Assembly: GCF_001713475.1 (NCBI RefSeq)
Contig: NZ_CP016499.1
Coordinates: 2,480,001 to 2,544,000, forward strand
Source: Agrobacterium sp. RAC06
Lineage (GTDB): Bacteria > Pseudomonadota > Alphaproteobacteria > Rhizobiales > Rhizobiaceae
DNA length: 64,000 bases
Direction: 5' to 3'
In this document: positions 3,786 through 46,413 of the stretch, piece after piece
Numbering within the stretch: position 1 is the first letter of the stretch
How the letters are laid out: every line of letters starts with the position of its first letter
The notes under the pieces: generated by a model
Seen by the model: the letters and a program-made list of their open reading frames with translations, nothing else
Databases searched by the model: none
What the model was told of the DNA's origin: nothing
Translations under genes and position numbers: made by a program

Positions 3786-4283
3786 TTAGCGAAGATCACG
3801 GCGCATGACAAGCGCAGAGGACCGGCGGCCGTTTTCGTCAGTGTAATAGGCCGGACGCTCGCCCGCCTTCTCGAAGCCGAGCTTGCGGTAGAGGCCAAGG
3901 GCTGCGTGGTTGCCGTCATCGACCTCGAGGAACATGGATTCACCGCCCCTCGCCTTCGCCTCGCGCAGAGCCGCCTGCATGAGGCGCCAGCCGAGGCCGA
4001 AGCGGGCGACCTTGTCGCCGACGGCAATCGTCAGGATCTCCGCCTCGCCGGCCACTTCGCGGGAGAGGACAAAGCCGGCCAACGGCGCCTTGAAGACCAG
4101 CGTATTGGTCTGCCAGGCAGCAAAGCCGAAGCTGTTGGGCTGGAGGAGCAGGCTGAGGAACTCGCCATCGCCCCAGGCGCGGGGGAAGCGCTGGGCATGC
4201 AACTCGGCCACTGCACGGCAGTGTTCGGAGGTCATGGGCACGATTTCGAATTCGGGCTGGCGGTAGAACAGGCTGTCGCGCAT
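3786..4283 (-). CDS. rimI: ribosomal-protein-alanine N-acetyltransferase (RimI type)
   Basis: GNAT-fold acetyltransferase of 165 aa expected to acetylate the N-terminal alanine of ribosomal protein S18. The acetyl-CoA-binding stretch (RFGLGWRLMQAAL) and the family signature FLEVDDGNHAALGLYRKLGFEKAGERPAYY are split across motifs A and B, with the Tyr typical of RimI. The open frame runs further upstream, but the ATG at 4283 lies 1 nt after the tsaB stop and gives the normal RimI length. The tsaB-rimI pairing is conserved in many bacteria and supports both calls. Confidence 0.92.
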   Translation of the reverse strand: MRDSLFYRQPEFEIVPMTSEHCRAVAELHAQRFPRAWGDGEFLSLLLQPNSFGFAAWQTNTLVFKAPLAGFVLSREVAGEAEILTIAVGDKVARFGLGWRLMQAALREAKARGGESMFLEVDDGNHAALGLYRKLGFEKAGERPAYYTDENGRRSSALVMRRDLR

Positions 4284-40444: not shown

Positions 40445-42019
40445 ATGAGCACGATCGGGGCATATTTCCGCCTGGCGCGGGTTGGGTGGGTGCTGGTGCG
40501 CGAAGGGGTGGTCGCGGCCCTTCCGTCGGAAGGACTGCCGCCGCTCGTCGGCATCGCCAAGGCGGCCGTCGCGCCGCTCGCGCGTGGCCGGGCGAAATCG
40601 GTCGAGCGGTCGGATCGTCTCGCCAGGGCCGTTGCACGCCTCGGCCCGTCCTATGTGAAGATCGGCCAGTTTCTCGCCACACGTCCGGATGTCGTCGGCG
40701 CTGAATTTGCAGAGGATCTCGCCGGGCTGCAGGACCGGATGGATTTCTTCCCGACGCAAGCCTCGAAGACGACCATTCAGGAATCGCTCGGCCGCTCCAT
40801 CGAAGAGCTTTACACGCATTTCGGTGAACCGATCGCCGCCGCCTCGATCGCCCAGGTGCACCCGGCCCAGGTCGCAACGCCAGAGGGCTCGCGAAAGGTT
40901 GCCGTCAAGGTGATCCGCCCGGGCGTGCGCAAGCGGTTTGCGGCCGATCTCGAGGCCATGTATCTCGTCTCGCATCTCCAGGAACGTTTCCTGCCGCATG
41001 CGCGGCGCCTGCGGCCCGTCGAGGTGACGAAGACGCTGGAGCAGACCACCAAGGTCGAGATGGATCTGCGCCTTGAGGCTGCGGCCCTGTCCGAGATTGC
41101 GGAAAACACCAAGGACGACCCGGGCTTTCGCGTGCCCGAAGTCGACTGGGAACGCACGGGCCGCGACGTCGTCACCATGGAATGGATCGACGGCGTCAAG
41201 ATGTCCGATGTCGAGGGCTTGAGGGCCGCCGGTCATGACCTCAACGCGCTCGCCGACACGCTGATCCAGTCCTTCCTGCGCCATACGCTTCGCGACGGCT
41301 TCTTCCATGCCGACATGCATCCGGGCAATCTCTTCGTCGATCCCGCCGGCATGATCGTCGCCGTCGACATGGGCATTGCCGGACGCCTTGGAAAGAAGGA
41401 ACGCCGCTTCCTCGCAGAGATCCTCTACGGCTTCATCACGCGCGACTACATGCGCGTGGCAGAAGTGCATTTCGAAGCCGGCTACGTTCCGTCGCACCAC
41501 AATGTCGCGAGCTTCGCCCAGGCGATCCGCGCGATCGGCGAGCCGATTCACGGGCAGCCGGCCGAGACCATCTCGATGGGTAAGCTGCTGACGCTATTGT
41601 TCGAAGTCACCGAGATCTTCGACATGCAGACACGCCCTGAACTGGTGATGCTGCAAAAGACCATGGTCGTCGTCGAGGGCGTCTCGCGCATTCTCAATCC
41701 GCGCTTCAACATGTGGAAAGCCGCAGAGCCGGTCGTCTCAAATTGGATCCGCGACAATCTGGGTCCGAAGCGGATTGCGACCGATCTCAAGGACGGCGCC
41801 AAGGCAGCACTCAGGCTGGCCGAAGCTCTGCCAGAAATCGCCAGCAAGACCGAGAAGCTTCATGGCGAGATCGTGCGGATGAGCGAGGAAGGTCTGCGTT
41901 TCGATGCGGACACGGCCGAGCGCATCGGACAGGCAGAAGCGCGACATACACGGTCTGGTCGGATCGCGCTCTGGGTGATCGCGGTCGCAGCTGTGGTGAC
42001 CGCTTTCCAGGTGTCCTGA
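40445..42019 (+). CDS. ubiB: UbiB atypical kinase/ATPase for ubiquinone biosynthesis
   Basis: Protein-kinase-like (ADCK/ABC1 family) ATPase of 524 aa that supports the membrane ubiquinone-synthesis complex. The KxGQ inhibitory motif is YVKIGQFLATRPDVVG. The A-rich loop region is AAASIAQVHPAQV, the catalytic segment FHADMHPGNLFVD and the metal site VDMGIAGRLG. A C-terminal hydrophobic segment (IALWVIAVAAVVTAFQV) anchors it to the membrane. Its transcript ends at a strong terminator at 42040. Confidence 0.95.
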   Translation: MSTIGAYFRLARVGWVLVREGVVAALPSEGLPPLVGIAKAAVAPLARGRAKSVERSDRLARAVARLGPSYVKIGQFLATRPDVVGAEFAEDLAGLQDRMDFFPTQASKTTIQESLGRSIEELYTHFGEPIAAASIAQVHPAQVATPEGSRKVAVKVIRPGVRKRFAADLEAMYLVSHLQERFLPHARRLRPVEVTKTLEQTTKVEMDLRLEAAALSEIAENTKDDPGFRVPEVDWERTGRDVVTMEWIDGVKMSDVEGLRAAGHDLNALADTLIQSFLRHTLRDGFFHADMHPGNLFVDPAGMIVAVDMGIAGRLGKKERRFLAEILYGFITRDYMRVAEVHFEAGYVPSHHNVASFAQAIRAIGEPIHGQPAETISMGKLLTLLFEVTEIFDMQTRPELVMLQKTMVVVEGVSRILNPRFNMWKAAEPVVSNWIRDNLGPKRIATDLKDGAKAALRLAEALPEIASKTEKLHGEIVRMSEEGLRFDADTAERIGQAEARHTRSGRIALWVIAVAAVVTAFQVS

Positions 42020-42039: not shown

Positions 42040-42062
42040 AAATCGCGAGTCCGCGATTTTTT
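42040..42062 (+). terminator. rho-independent terminator after ubiE-ubiB
   Basis: A perfect 8-bp stem AAATCGCG/CGCGATTT with loop AGTC is continued by T residues to 42062. It lies 20 nt after the ubiB stop and insulates the stress module that begins 4 nt later with its first promoter element. Confidence 0.9.
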
Positions 42063-42065
42063 GAT

Positions 42066-42115
42066 GGAACAAACATATCGATCGTGCGTTGGAACCACCT
42101 AACGCGCTTTATGTT
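42066..42115 (+). promoter_or_regulatory. tandem EcfG/RpoE2-type general stress promoters
   Basis: GGAAC (42066-42070), 16 bp, CGTT (42087-42090) is an exact match to the alphaproteobacterial general-stress promoter consensus. A second GGAAC (42091-42095), 16 bp, TGTT (42112-42115) follows directly, with one mismatch. Both read towards the histidine kinase that starts at 42130. No other exact copy was seen in intergenic DNA of this window. Confidence 0.72.
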
Positions 42116-42129
42116 CCGTCGGGAGTGAC

Positions 42130-43617
42130 ATGTCTGCCACCCAAACCGGCTTCGTTCGGTCCACGCTGCTCTTTCTCCTGATTGGCACCGCAATCCTCAT
42201 CGGCATTATCGTCGCGACCTTTGGTCTCGTCGAGCGCACCCAGGCGACCTTCGAATACATCCTGCAGGAGCGTAACATCCGGCGCATGGCCGCCGACCTC
42301 ATGCAGAAGCTGACCGACGCCGAGACCGGCCAACGTGGTTTTGTTATCACGCAGGACGAGCTATTTCTTGAACCTTACGAGTCCGCCGTCGGCGCGATCC
42401 GGGAAGAGGTCGACCGGCTGGCGACAGCGGTTGCCGATCGCCCGGTCAAGGCAGCCCAGATGGACCGGTTGCGCGACCGGATCCGGGGAAAGCTCGCCGA
42501 GATGGGGCAGGCCATCAATCTCATGCGCAGCGGCGAGCAGGCTCAGGCCGTCGAATTGATCCAGAGCGATGTCGGTCGTGAGCTTATGGACGACATCCGC
42601 TCCATGCTCGATCAGTTCAAGGAACTTTCGGACGCGAATGTCGACCGGGGAACCGAGGCGCAGATCAGTGCGACCCAGCAGCTTCAGTGGATCACGGTCG
42701 GCGGCGGCATCGCCATCATAGCCGTGATGGGTGGTGCGATCCTGGTCGTTGCGCAGCATGTGCGTGCGCTTGCAGCTTCCAGGCGGGAGGTCGAGGTGTT
42801 GAACGAGGGCCTGGAAGCCCGTGTTGCGGAGCGCACCGAGGACCTCATGCAGGCAAACCAGGAGATCCAGCGCTTCGCCTATATCGTCACCCATGACCTG
42901 AGGGCACCGCTCGTGAACATCATGGGCTTTACCGCAGAGCTCGACGCCTCGCTGAAATCCTTGCAGGCCTATGTCCTGAACGACGGCAAGCCGGTGTCCG
43001 AAGAGGAGATCCGCGAGGCCAGACTGGCTGCGTCGGAAGACCTGCCCGAAGCCATCGGCTTCATCCGCTCGTCGACAAAGAAAATGGATGGACTGATCAA
43101 CGCGATCCTGAAGATCTCGCGCGACGGGCGACGCCAGCTGAAGCCCGAAATCGTCGAACTGCAGCCCCTGCTGGAGACCATCACCAACAGCGTCTATCAC
43201 CAGATCAGCGAAAGCGACGGCAGCATCGATATCGACATCAAGGCCACCCGCCTGAACACCGATCGATTGTCGGTCGAACAAATTCTTGGTAACCTTTTTG
43301 ACAATGCTATCAAATACAAGCATCCCCAACGGCCCCTGACGCTCGCCGTCCGAACCGCGCCCGAAGGGCGTCACATGGTAAGGATCGAGGTGGAGGACAA
43401 TGGCCGTGGAGTTGCAGAGCAGGACCACGAACGCATTTTCGAACTTTTTCGCCGCGCCGGTCAGCAGGACCAATCGGGTGAAGGCATCGGCCTTGCCCAT
43501 GTCCGCTCACTGGCACGGAACCTTGGGGGGGAGATCACCGTTCAATCCCGTTTAGGAGAAGGGTCAACCTTCGTACTGCGACTGCCATCTGATCTGTCAC
43601 GCTTGGTACGGAGTTGA
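42130..43617 (+). CDS. CHASE3-domain sensor histidine kinase
   Basis: Membrane sensor kinase of 495 aa. TM1 (about 13-34) and TM2 (about 188-210) bracket a periplasmic CHASE3 domain with the signature LTDAETGQRGFVITQDE. After a coiled coil (VEVLNEGLEARVAERTEDL) comes the phosphoacceptor His255 in YIVTHDLRAPL. About 35 extra residues (roughly 275-308) enlarge the dimerisation hairpin. The ATPase has the N-box DNAIKYK (391-397), VEDNGRG and GEGIGLAHV. The ligand is unknown. The ribosome-binding site is GGGAG at 42121. The receiver gene starts 3 nt after the stop. Confidence 0.92.
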   Translation: MSATQTGFVRSTLLFLLIGTAILIGIIVATFGLVERTQATFEYILQERNIRRMAADLMQKLTDAETGQRGFVITQDELFLEPYESAVGAIREEVDRLATAVADRPVKAAQMDRLRDRIRGKLAEMGQAINLMRSGEQAQAVELIQSDVGRELMDDIRSMLDQFKELSDANVDRGTEAQISATQQLQWITVGGGIAIIAVMGGAILVVAQHVRALAASRREVEVLNEGLEARVAERTEDLMQANQEIQRFAYIVTHDLRAPLVNIMGFTAELDASLKSLQAYVLNDGKPVSEEEIREARLAASEDLPEAIGFIRSSTKKMDGLINAILKISRDGRRQLKPEIVELQPLLETITNSVYHQISESDGSIDIDIKATRLNTDRLSVEQILGNLFDNAIKYKHPQRPLTLAVRTAPEGRHMVRIEVEDNGRGVAEQDHERIFELFRRAGQQDQSGEGIGLAHVRSLARNLGGEITVQSRLGEGSTFVLRLPSDLSRLVRS

Positions 43618-43619
43618 TA

Positions 43620-44057
43620 ATGAAAGCCGTGGGTAAAGAAGTCACCATTGTCATGGTCGAAGACGACGAGGGTCACGCCCGTCTGATCGAAAAGAACGTG
43701 CGTCGGGCCGGCGTCAACAACGAGATCGTGCCCTTCACCAACGGCACCGATGCGCTGGACTATGTGCTGGGCAAGGATCGTAGCGGCAAGATTTCAGAAG
43801 ACCGCTACCTGTTGATCCTGCTCGACCTCAATCTGCCCGACATGTCGGGTACCGATATTCTCGACCAGATTAAATCCAATCCGCACACGCGACGGCTCCC
43901 GGTCGTCATCCTCACGACGACGGATGACGAACGCGAAATCCAGCGCTGCTACGATCTCGGGGCCAATGTCTATATTACCAAACCTGTCGATTACGACAAT
44001 TTCGCCAACGCCATTCGCCAGCTCGGACTGTTCTTCTCCGTCATGCAAATCCCCTGA
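43620..44057 (+). CDS. single-domain response regulator (Rcp1-like)
   Basis: Stand-alone receiver of 145 aa with no output domain. The acidic pocket is VEDDEGHA, the phospho-acceptor Asp69 is in LLDLNLPDMSG, and Thr and Lys switch residues are in VILTTTDDE and ITKPVDY. The C-terminal extension NFANAIRQLGLFFSVMQIP resembles the tail of cyanobacterial Rcp1-type regulators paired with phytochrome kinases. The ATG at 43620 (3 nt after the kinase stop) is preferred over TTG 43614. It probably takes phosphate from the kinase and shuttles it to another protein. Confidence 0.92.
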   Translation: MKAVGKEVTIVMVEDDEGHARLIEKNVRRAGVNNEIVPFTNGTDALDYVLGKDRSGKISEDRYLLILLDLNLPDMSGTDILDQIKSNPHTRRLPVVILTTTDDEREIQRCYDLGANVYITKPVDYDNFANAIRQLGLFFSVMQIP

Positions 44058-44070
44058 TGGCGGTCAGGCG

Positions 44071-45111
44071 ATGAGCTTCAGCGTTCTCTATATCGATGAC
44101 GATGCTGCCATTGCCCGGCTGGTCCAGAGGCATATGGGACGGCTTGGTCATGAGGTGTCGCATGCCGAGAACGCCGAAGACGCGCTTGAACTCCTGAAGA
44201 CGGCAGCATTCGACGTCGTCGTGCTCGATCATTACCTGCGCCAGACGACCGGCCACGACGTGCTCGGCCGCATGCGCGATGCCGAGATCGATGTGCCGGT
44301 GGTCTATGTCACCGGGTCCAACGAGGCGCAGGTCGCGATTGAGGCGATCAAGGCGGGTGCTGCGGACTACGTGATCAAGACAGTCAGCGACGACTTCCTG
44401 TCACTCTTGTCGAGCGCGATCGAGCAGACGGTCGCCAACGCCCAGCTGCGTGCAGCGAAGGCCCGCGCCGATGAAGAGATCAGACTTGGTAAGGAACGTG
44501 CCGAGGCGCTGCTGGCCGAGGTCAACCATCGCGTCGCCAACTCGCTGGCGCTGGTCGCCAGCCTGCTCAGGCTGCAGATCTCGGCGGCCCGCAGCGATGA
44601 AGTGAAGGCGGAACTGGCAGAAACCCAGGCGCGCATCACGGCAATCGCCGGCATGCACCGCAGTCTCTACACCTCCGACGACGTCAGCCGGGTGGAGCTT
44701 GATCGTTACCTCAACCGTCTCACCGTTGAGCTCTACAATTCCCTGCACAGCGCCGAAAAGCCGGTGCGCCTGCTGCTCGATGCCGATCCCATATCTCTCA
44801 GCGCCGACAAGGCGGTTTCGGTCGGCATGATCGTCACCGAACTCGTGACCAACGCCTTCAAATACGCCTATGCGACCGGCCAGCCGGGTGACATCAGGGT
44901 GCATCTGAAAACGATGGGCAACGGCGAGGCGCTGCTCCGGGTCGAGGACGACGGGGTCGGCATTGATCCTCAGAGCGCGCCCAAGGGAACCGGCCTCGGG
45001 AGCCGGATCGTCAAATCCATGGCCTCGACGCTGGGAGACGGTCTGCGTTATCTCGAAGGCACCCGAGGCACCGTTGCGGAAGTCCCGCTCAAGCTCGACA
45101 GCGGAGCTTGA
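44071..45111 (+). CDS. receiver-HRxxN (HWE/HisKA_2) hybrid histidine kinase
   Basis: Soluble 346-aa protein with an N-terminal receiver (acidic VLYIDDD, phospho-Asp53 in VVVLDHYLRQTTG) followed by a HisKA_2-type kinase. The phospho-His motif HRVAN is at 153-157 (EVNHRVANSLALVASLLRLQ), the N-box is ELVTNAFKYAY, and VEDDGVGI is the G-box. HRxxN kinases are the family that phosphorylates PhyR in the general stress response. No sensor domain or membrane segment is seen, so the receiver is the likely input. The start at 44071 is 13 nt after the receiver gene. Confidence 0.93.
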   Translation: MSFSVLYIDDDAAIARLVQRHMGRLGHEVSHAENAEDALELLKTAAFDVVVLDHYLRQTTGHDVLGRMRDAEIDVPVVYVTGSNEAQVAIEAIKAGAADYVIKTVSDDFLSLLSSAIEQTVANAQLRAAKARADEEIRLGKERAEALLAEVNHRVANSLALVASLLRLQISAARSDEVKAELAETQARITAIAGMHRSLYTSDDVSRVELDRYLNRLTVELYNSLHSAEKPVRLLLDADPISLSADKAVSVGMIVTELVTNAFKYAYATGQPGDIRVHLKTMGNGEALLRVEDDGVGIDPQSAPKGTGLGSRIVKSMASTLGDGLRYLEGTRGTVAEVPLKLDSGA

Positions 45112-45198: not shown

Positions 45199-46413
45199 AT
45201 GAGCTTGGTCGGAAAGCGGATTTTGCTTGTTATCGCGGGCGGCATAGCCGCCTACAAGAGCCTCGACCTCATCAGGAGGCTCAGGGAGCGCGGTGCGAGC
45301 GTGCGGCCCATCATGACGCGTGGGGCACAGGAATTCGTGACGCCGCTTGCTGTTGGCGCGCTGTCGGCCTCCCATGTCTATACCGAACTCTTCTCCCGCG
45401 AAGACGAGCAGGATGTCGGCCATATCCGGCTGGCGCGCGAATGCGATCTCGTGCTCGTCGCACCCGCGACCGCCGACCTGATGGCGAAGATGGCGAACGG
45501 GCTGGCGGATGATCTTGCATCCACAGTGCTGCTTGCGACCGACCGTCCCGTGCTGATTGTCCCTGCCATGAACCCGAAGATGTGGGCGCATCCGGCAACA
45601 CAGCGGAACCACGCCACACTGCAACGTGACGGCATCAAGGCCATCGGCCCGATGGAAGGCGAGATGGCGGAAAGCGGCGAGCGCGGACGCGGGCGCATGG
45701 CCGAGCCGATCGACATCGCGGACCGTGTCGAAGACATGCTCTCCGGGCCGAAACCGCTTGCGGGCATGACAGCCGTCGTGACCTCGGGCCCGACGCATGA
45801 ACCGATCGATCCCGTACGCTACATCGCCAATCGCTCCTCGGGCAAGCAGGGCCACGCGATTGCGGCAGCCCTTACCCGCCTGGGCGCCGAGGTTACCCTG
45901 GTCTCCGGCCCCGTGACCATTGCCGATCCCGCGGGCGTTCGCACCCAGCATGTGGAGCGGGCCGAGGAGATGCGCGATGCCGTGCTCTTGGCACTTCCGG
46001 CCGACATCGCGGTCATGGTTGCCGCCGTCGCCGACTGGCGCGTTGCGTCCTCGGCGGAGCAGAAGATCAAGAAGCAGCCCGGCGAGGCGCCGCCGCCGCT
46101 CGAACTCACGGAAAACCCTGACATCCTCAAGACCGTCGGCCATCATCCTCAGCGCCCACGGCTCGTTGTCGGCTTTGCCGCAGAGACCCAGAATGTCGAG
46201 GAAAACGGCCGCTCCAAGCTTGAGCGCAAGGGTGCCGACCTGATCGTCGCCAATGATGTCTCGCCCGAGACCGGCATCATGGGGGGCGATCGCAACCGGG
46301 TGAAGCTGATTTCCCGCGACGGGGTCGAAGCCTGGCCTGATCTCTCGAAAGACGAAGTGGCCGAACGGCTGGCACTCTGGATCGCGACCCAGATCGGCGG
46401 GACAGGCGCATGA
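45199..46413 (+). CDS. coaBC: bifunctional phosphopantothenoylcysteine decarboxylase/synthetase
   Basis: Coenzyme A biosynthesis enzyme of 404 aa. The N-terminal flavoprotein CoaC domain has the GGIAAYKSLDLIRRL start and the substrate-recognition clamp PAMNPKMWAHPATQRN. The C-terminal CoaB domain has SGPTHEPIDPVRYIANRSSGKQG. The stop overlaps the next gene as ATGA, so the two are translationally coupled. Confidence 0.97.
   Translation: MSLVGKRILLVIAGGIAAYKSLDLIRRLRERGASVRPIMTRGAQEFVTPLAVGALSASHVYTELFSREDEQDVGHIRLARECDLVLVAPATADLMAKMANGLADDLASTVLLATDRPVLIVPAMNPKMWAHPATQRNHATLQRDGIKAIGPMEGEMAESGERGRGRMAEPIDIADRVEDMLSGPKPLAGMTAVVTSGPTHEPIDPVRYIANRSSGKQGHAIAAALTRLGAEVTLVSGPVTIADPAGVRTQHVERAEEMRDAVLLALPADIAVMVAAVADWRVASSAEQKIKKQPGEAPPPLELTENPDILKTVGHHPQRPRLVVGFAAETQNVEENGRSKLERKGADLIVANDVSPETGIMGGDRNRVKLISRDGVEAWPDLSKDEVAERLALWIATQIGGTGA

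Follow-up and report, generated by a model that had tools for sequence, protein, structure and literature searches.

An EcfG-type promoter and a candidate inverted partner upstream of a kinase-receiver-kinase gene trio in one clade of the Rhizobiaceae

Known gene trios and the locus in Agrobacterium sp. RAC06

A sensor kinase, a single-domain receiver, and a second kinase with its own receiver (REC) domain are encoded together in the closest described systems. In Sinorhizobium medicae, the TcsA-TcrA-FsrR system mediates acid induction of lpiA-acvB (PMC4674904, PMC5613336), and in Agrobacterium the phytochrome BphP1, the receiver AgR, and the REC-HWE kinase ExsG are the sensor kinase, receiver, and receiver kinase of one operon (PMC3899027, PMC1552090). 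BphP1 phosphorylates both AgR and the ExsG receiver in parallel; ExsG, a hexamer whose kinase is inhibited by phosphorylation of its receiver, passes phosphate on to ExsF but to neither AgR nor its own receiver (PMC3899027). Response regulator-kinase pairs of S. meliloti, SMa0113/114 and exsFG, are rpoE2 dependent and have mapped sigma-E2 starts (PMC3616915). Here we describe a trio in Agrobacterium sp. RAC06, located in a window of 64,000 nucleotides (nt) on contig NZ_CP016499.1 (G000:C1:2480001-2544000 in our coordinates) of a two-contig genome totaling 4,964,647 bases. The trio belongs to a known kind, and the unusual part is its promoter region, where the conservation pattern suggests that one clade of the Rhizobiaceae carries two promoters of the type read by the general stress sigma factor EcfG (RpoE2), placed face to face.

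The original prediction, made from the letters of this stretch, described a kinase, a single receiver, and a receiver-HRxxN kinase in close succession, and both domain searches and coordinates confirmed this layout:

42130..43617, + strand: CHASE3-HisKA-HATPase sensor kinase, TcsA-like (domain search; 36% identity to TcsA)
43620..44057, + strand: single-domain receiver of the Rcp1/phytochrome-regulator type, TcrA-like (domain search; 65% identity to TcrA)
44071..45111, + strand: kinase with receiver, HisKA_2 (HRVAN), and HATPase domains, FsrR/ExsG-like (domain search; 46% identity to FsrR)

The first gene opens with an ATG at 42130 behind a likely ribosome site (GGGAG, 42121-42125), and the intergenic gaps are 2 nt between kinase and receiver and 13 nt between receiver and third gene. 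All three domain layouts, their order, and their strand are identical to those of TcsA-TcrA-FsrR. The third protein also has the ExsG-type layout, with an N-terminal receiver and an HWE/HisKA_2 kinase encoded after a sensor kinase and an Rcp1-type receiver, although the sensor at this locus is a CHASE3 protein and not a phytochrome. The best solved relatives of the single receiver are 3heb (E 2e-71), followed by 5ic5, 5brj, 5te9, RcpA, and Rcp1. As judged by the third protein, the closest named relatives of this strain are Agrobacterium albertimagni AOL15 (96%) and Rhizobium sp. RU33A (95%).

Comparisons were made over 83 loci: 80 chosen as the best among 350 confirmed stretches, plus three plasmid loci. 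The trio stands in order in 77 of them, 26 of which have ubiB in the locus. The active-site residues that we checked are kept across these 77 loci with few exceptions: one acidic receiver residue of the third protein is Glu in 7 loci, and at four further sites a single locus each is divergent or unaligned. This retention makes it plausible that the trio is a phosphotransfer module. The HisKA match of the sensor kinase (window positions 42868-43122) spreads 60 profile positions over 85 residues; the trio kinases and TcsA share this long inter-helix stretch, whose length, measured between two motifs, is equal in 63 of the 77 loci. PMC9048898 states that the S. medicae system is absent from species other than E. 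medicae; in contrast, trios of the TcsA-TcrA-FsrR layout are widespread.

Two EcfG-type boxes upstream of the sensor kinase

The two promoter elements originally predicted, GGAAC-N16-CGTT (box 1) followed at once by GGAAC-N16-TGTT (box 2), are exact on the forward strand, and the pair begins 64 nt and ends 15 nt before the kinase ATG. Box 1 has the form of an EcfG (RpoE2) promoter, GGAAC and CGTT separated by 16 to 17 nt upstream of a gene, and equals the EcfG1 motif of Rhizobium etli, GGAAC-N16-CGTT (PMC3892343). Box 2 can be read on either strand, as listed below.

42066..42090, + strand: P1, EcfG-type promoter, with -35 GGAACAA at 42066-42072 and -10 CGTT at 42087-42090 (motif and conservation)
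42093..42117, - strand: P2, candidate inverted EcfG-type promoter facing P1, with -35 GGAAC at 42117-42113, N16, and -10 GGTT at 42096-42093 (conservation and matrix scores)
42091..42115, + strand: GGAAC-N16-TGTT, the tandem reading of box 2, intact in this species

Transcripts are predicted to start near 42097 from P1 and, leftward, near 42086 from P2.

The EcfG motif alone is weak evidence and lies within chance in both window and genome. The window holds 2 matches versus 0.60 expected, with at least 2 in 15 of 100 shuffles, and GGAAC-N16/17-CGTT occurs 74 times genome-wide versus 112 times for a backwards control; 16 of the 74 extend to GGAACAA, where our arithmetic puts the expectation at about 5 for evenly distributed bases at the next two positions. 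The argument is carried by all the distinct sequences upstream of the kinase gene, 19 in number with identical ones counted once, from loci with a kinase identity of at least 74% (the next lower value is 68.7%; the cut was chosen after seeing where the box ends). The search patterns, GGAACA[AT] for P1 and TGTTT?CC for box 2, matched all 19, L017 only via the extra T. GGAACAA of box 1 is present in 19/19 and its -10 is CGTT in 17, TGTT in one, and CATT in one, while the pairwise identity of the spacer is 0.35; box 1 is therefore probably maintained by selection. The genome also encodes PhyR, two NepR, and an EcfG-type sigma factor, named from its sigma domains and its position beside NepR. These genes, together with the retention of P1 through the clade, support the predicted EcfG control of the trio operon.

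The conservation of box 2 favors the opposite strand. Its forward -35, GGAAC, is found in only 5 of the 19 sequences and TGTT in all of them, while TGTTCC, which is the inverted GGAACA, is kept in 18 (as TTGTTCC in 17, and as ATGTTCC in this window) and AAC, the inverted GTT, in 17. Where both are present, AAC and GTTCC lie 17 nt apart, and this distance is constant across a spacer of 0.43 identity, while the gap from box 1 to AAC varies (1 or 2 nt). Scored with a matrix built from box 1 positions only, the scored row being left out, box 2 reaches a mean of 2.4 bits forward versus 16.4 bits in reverse, and the reverse reading outscores the forward one in 18/19 sequences. Tandem promoters as a kept feature, which the second forward element had implied, were thus rejected for the clade. 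On sequence alone, the clade has the arrangement that defines a bidirectional promoter, opposed elements sharing one polymerase site. The closest analogue is found among bidirectional sigma-70 promoters of Escherichia coli, likewise pseudo-symmetric DNA with opposed -10 elements (PMC12825309); the dyad formed by boxes 1 and 2 differs in having EcfG-type boxes, in keeping the -35 elements too, and in a predicted leftward product that would be antisense to ubiB. The predicted P1 and P2 starts are about 10 to 11 bp apart, assuming 7 nt from -10 to start, near the 10-bp spacing that is a common class among the E. coli promoters (PMC12825309). A narrow literature search found, among the papers it listed, no report joining EcfG with a bidirectional or divergent promoter.

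The dyad pattern occurs once each in 12 of 60 genomes, versus 2 of 60 for the backwards control, and all 12 occurrences map by coordinates to this locus. The 13 rows with this promoter type group as a single clade (support 100/100) in a tree built from 84 third proteins; the dyad label was put on the whole clade, including L017, whose second box is broken. As a conserved pattern, the dyad is limited to this one clade of the Rhizobiaceae. That the trio is an EcfG module in general is not supported: GGAAC-N16/17-CGTT lies within 400 nt in 7 of the 64 trio loci outside the clade, versus 1 of 64 for the backwards control.

Our tentative interpretation of the dyad, to which we assign somewhat less than an even chance, is that selection has kept, in one clade of the Rhizobiaceae, a single site of dyad symmetry from which the general stress sigma fires both ways, into the trio on the right and into a ubiB-antisense RNA on the left, with the two orientations limiting each other. 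The low count of boxes at trios outside the clade weighs against a face-to-face promoter and against the favored module described below, as do several further observations. In this window, the sole exception among the 19, box 2 scores 11.8 forward versus 10.3 in reverse; read inverted, it has GGAACAT in place of GGAACAA as the -35 and GGTT as the -10. Across the set the inverted -10 is CGTT in 8/19 and lost in 2/19, the inverted promoter of L017 being broken in both halves and that of L105 in its -10. Fourteen sister loci at the same ubiB-coaBC site (L010-L016 and L018-L024) have no box in the last 100 nt; three of them match further upstream (L015 at -227, L023 at -339, L024 at -334 and -117), and these matches may be chance or separate promoters. 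Finally, no gene was found for the leftward RNA to serve. Tandem forward promoters, with two starts that both lead into the trio and a stronger stress response, would explain why both forward elements are exact in the window, why TGTT is universal in the set, and why forward box 2, at 11.8, equals the maximum of 20,000 random 26-mers, 99.9% of which score below 4.8. We nevertheless regard this arrangement as improbable, given the absence of the forward GGAAC from most sequences, the mean scores, and the conserved CC past TGTT, which fits an inverted -35 and not a forward -10. In this window, and so for this species, either reading of box 2 is possible; L096, the window's nearest relative in the promoter set, scores 11.8 forward and 15.5 in reverse. 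It is also quite unlikely that P1 is the sole promoter and the AAC/TGTTCC block a 5' leader element or the site of a dimeric regulator, bound by RNA or a repressor. Such a block would belong to the leader of the P1-derived transcript, immediately ahead of the ribosome site, and no leftward gene is known; however, it copies an EcfG promoter in box letters, 16-nt spacing, and orientation, and its exact spacing spans a diverged spacer.

Neighboring genes and related loci

The surroundings of the trio in the window are as follows.

40445-42019: ubiB, left neighbor of the trio
45199-46413: coaBC, right neighbor of the trio
42040..42059, strand entered as a dot: hairpin with an 8-bp stem, AAATCGCG/CGCGATTT, and a + strand T run that reaches 42062; probably where the ubiB transcript ends

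The hairpin folds at -10.4 kcal/mol (z -2.45) and was reported by the terminator scan solely on the - strand. A terminator ahead of the promoter had been predicted, and the 8-bp hairpin followed by T agrees with it; as a component of the module it was rejected, an upstream hairpin of -9 kcal/mol or better being present in 2 of the 19 distinct upstream sequences. About 20 nt separate ubiB from the start of the kinase gene in the A. vitis group.

In S. medicae the neighbors are different, namely, lpiA and a REC-sigma54-HTH regulator. A search for LpiA over the 83 loci gave a match solely in its own locus; the window trio, flanked by ubiB and coaBC, is not beside lpiA. Regulation of lpiA via PhyR and EcfG was considered and rejected for S. 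medicae, as a box would be expected before lpiA or tcsA and none was found upstream of either gene at that locus. FsrR has no DNA-binding domain by Pfam and should therefore act on lpiA through another protein. The REC-sigma54-HTH gene (L081:2876-4273) stands next to tcsA-tcrA-fsrR, and a GG-N10-GC element (L081:9133-9146) precedes lpiA; a route from FsrR through this regulator and element is possible, as a lead only.

A more distant trio, L066, has two GGAAC-N16-CGTT elements at 3876 and 3903, roughly 151 and 124 nt ahead of the kinase and in true tandem. The trios of L065 and L070 (Pleomorphomonas) each have an EcfG box some 350 nt ahead of the kinase, which may be a further, independent recruitment. 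The third gene has a close homologue in 80 of 148 genomes of one Rhizobium genus, and 31 Rhizobium loci (L137-L167) encode it with no partner receiver or kinase within the 4-kb stretch. The orphan set comprised 32 upstream regions, distinguished by their last 120 nt, two of which belong to the trios L064 and L067 and have no box. Of the remaining 30 distinct regions, 22 (L080 included) carry GGAAC-N16-CGTT starting 254 to 270 nt upstream and 8 do not. A leader or a small RNA may lie between this box and the orphan kinase gene, and the box may serve the kinase or something in that leader.

Exact-pattern boxes in the stretches examined around the other eight HisKA_2 genes of the RAC06 genome are on the wrong strand or in the wrong place, bar one, which lies about 105 nt before a phytochrome gene and inside another frame. 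The same genome encodes a bacteriophytochrome with an HWE kinase and a C-terminal receiver at G000:C1:4312750-4315305. Among 12 phytochrome loci selected by short open frames, 5 continue in the order sensor kinase, receiver, receiver kinase (the third protein of L202 matched in its receiver part only), one has a kinase and receiver only, and six have no such trio. Identity of the genes behind these phytochromes to the trio is 25 to 35%, with 25 to 30% for the third protein. ExsG of S. meliloti was tried as the closest known protein and set aside: of two pSymB HWE hits (540634 and 1159845), the one read, 1159845, showed sensor domains on visual inspection but, over the part covered, no receiver at its N terminus.

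A branched module under general stress control

The domains, gene order, active-site residues, box conservation and symmetry, and single clade are established from sequence. Divergent starts, parallel phosphotransfer, the sign of the brake, and the output of the trio are what we infer beyond them, and at a probability of roughly 0.55 we favor a branched two-component module, with the general stress response setting its supply via the face-to-face EcfG promoter. In this model, the sigma-EcfG polymerase would bind a 52-bp near-symmetric site, transcribing the trio in the P1 orientation and starting leftward, antisense to ubiB, in the P2 orientation. An EcfG1-type promoter drives the noncoding RNA ReC64 in R. 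etli (PMC3892343). At the E. coli bidirectional sites, polymerases exclude each other, competition matters once transcription is strong, and noise is lowered (PMC12825309). With mutually exclusive P1 and P2 orientations, the output of a consensus promoter would therefore be limited and less noisy. The CHASE3 kinase would respond to a signal at the membrane or outside it and phosphorylate the single receiver as well as the receiver of the third protein; the latter, once phosphorylated, would brake the HRxxN kinase by analogy with ExsG, and phosphate from this kinase would pass to another regulator, which may be PhyR or some other receiver. We consider it likely that the relay is branched, has a brake-type receiver, and is under general stress control. 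This departs from the originally predicted relay from the single receiver to the receiver-gated kinase, which is disfavored by the parallel phosphorylation of both receivers in the distant relatives BphP1, AgR, and ExsG (PMC3899027). The brake sign may not carry over, since the phytochrome-linked genes are so little alike, and this counts against the braked form of the module.

The module could feed back on the stress response in either direction, and we consider each direction, taken singly, rather unlikely. In a positive loop, the HRxxN kinase would phosphorylate PhyR, and EcfG would thereby raise its own activator. HWE/HisKA2 kinases are the usual inputs of the general stress response (PMC12148442, PMC6599016), the best NCBIfam match of the third protein is PhyK, and differently placed EcfG boxes precede the majority of the distinct Rhizobium orphan homologues. 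However, the PhyK match, at 108.9 bits, stays below the equivalog cut-off of 750, EcfG boxes are missing from the 400 nt before most trios, and FsrR acts on lpiA, whose upstream region has the GG-N10-GC element but no EcfG box. In a negative loop or phosphate sink, as proposed for LovK-LovR of Caulobacter, proteins made under EcfG would drain or block phosphate on its way to PhyR. There, lovKR is under SigT control and drains MrrA (PMC5964349), and the inhibition of ExsG by receiver phosphorylation (PMC3899027) points the same way, but the single receiver resembles Rcp1-type regulators. Both a PhyR output and a phosphate sink are compatible with the data, and the sign of the feedback is not readable from them.

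The trio comparison suggests that FsrR acts indirectly on lpiA and shows that trios of the TcsA-TcrA-FsrR type are not confined to one species. The bidirectional reading is cleanly testable because the two halves of the dyad can be broken separately. If the EcfG promoter is indeed bidirectional, control by the stress sigma factor can limit itself at the level of the promoter.

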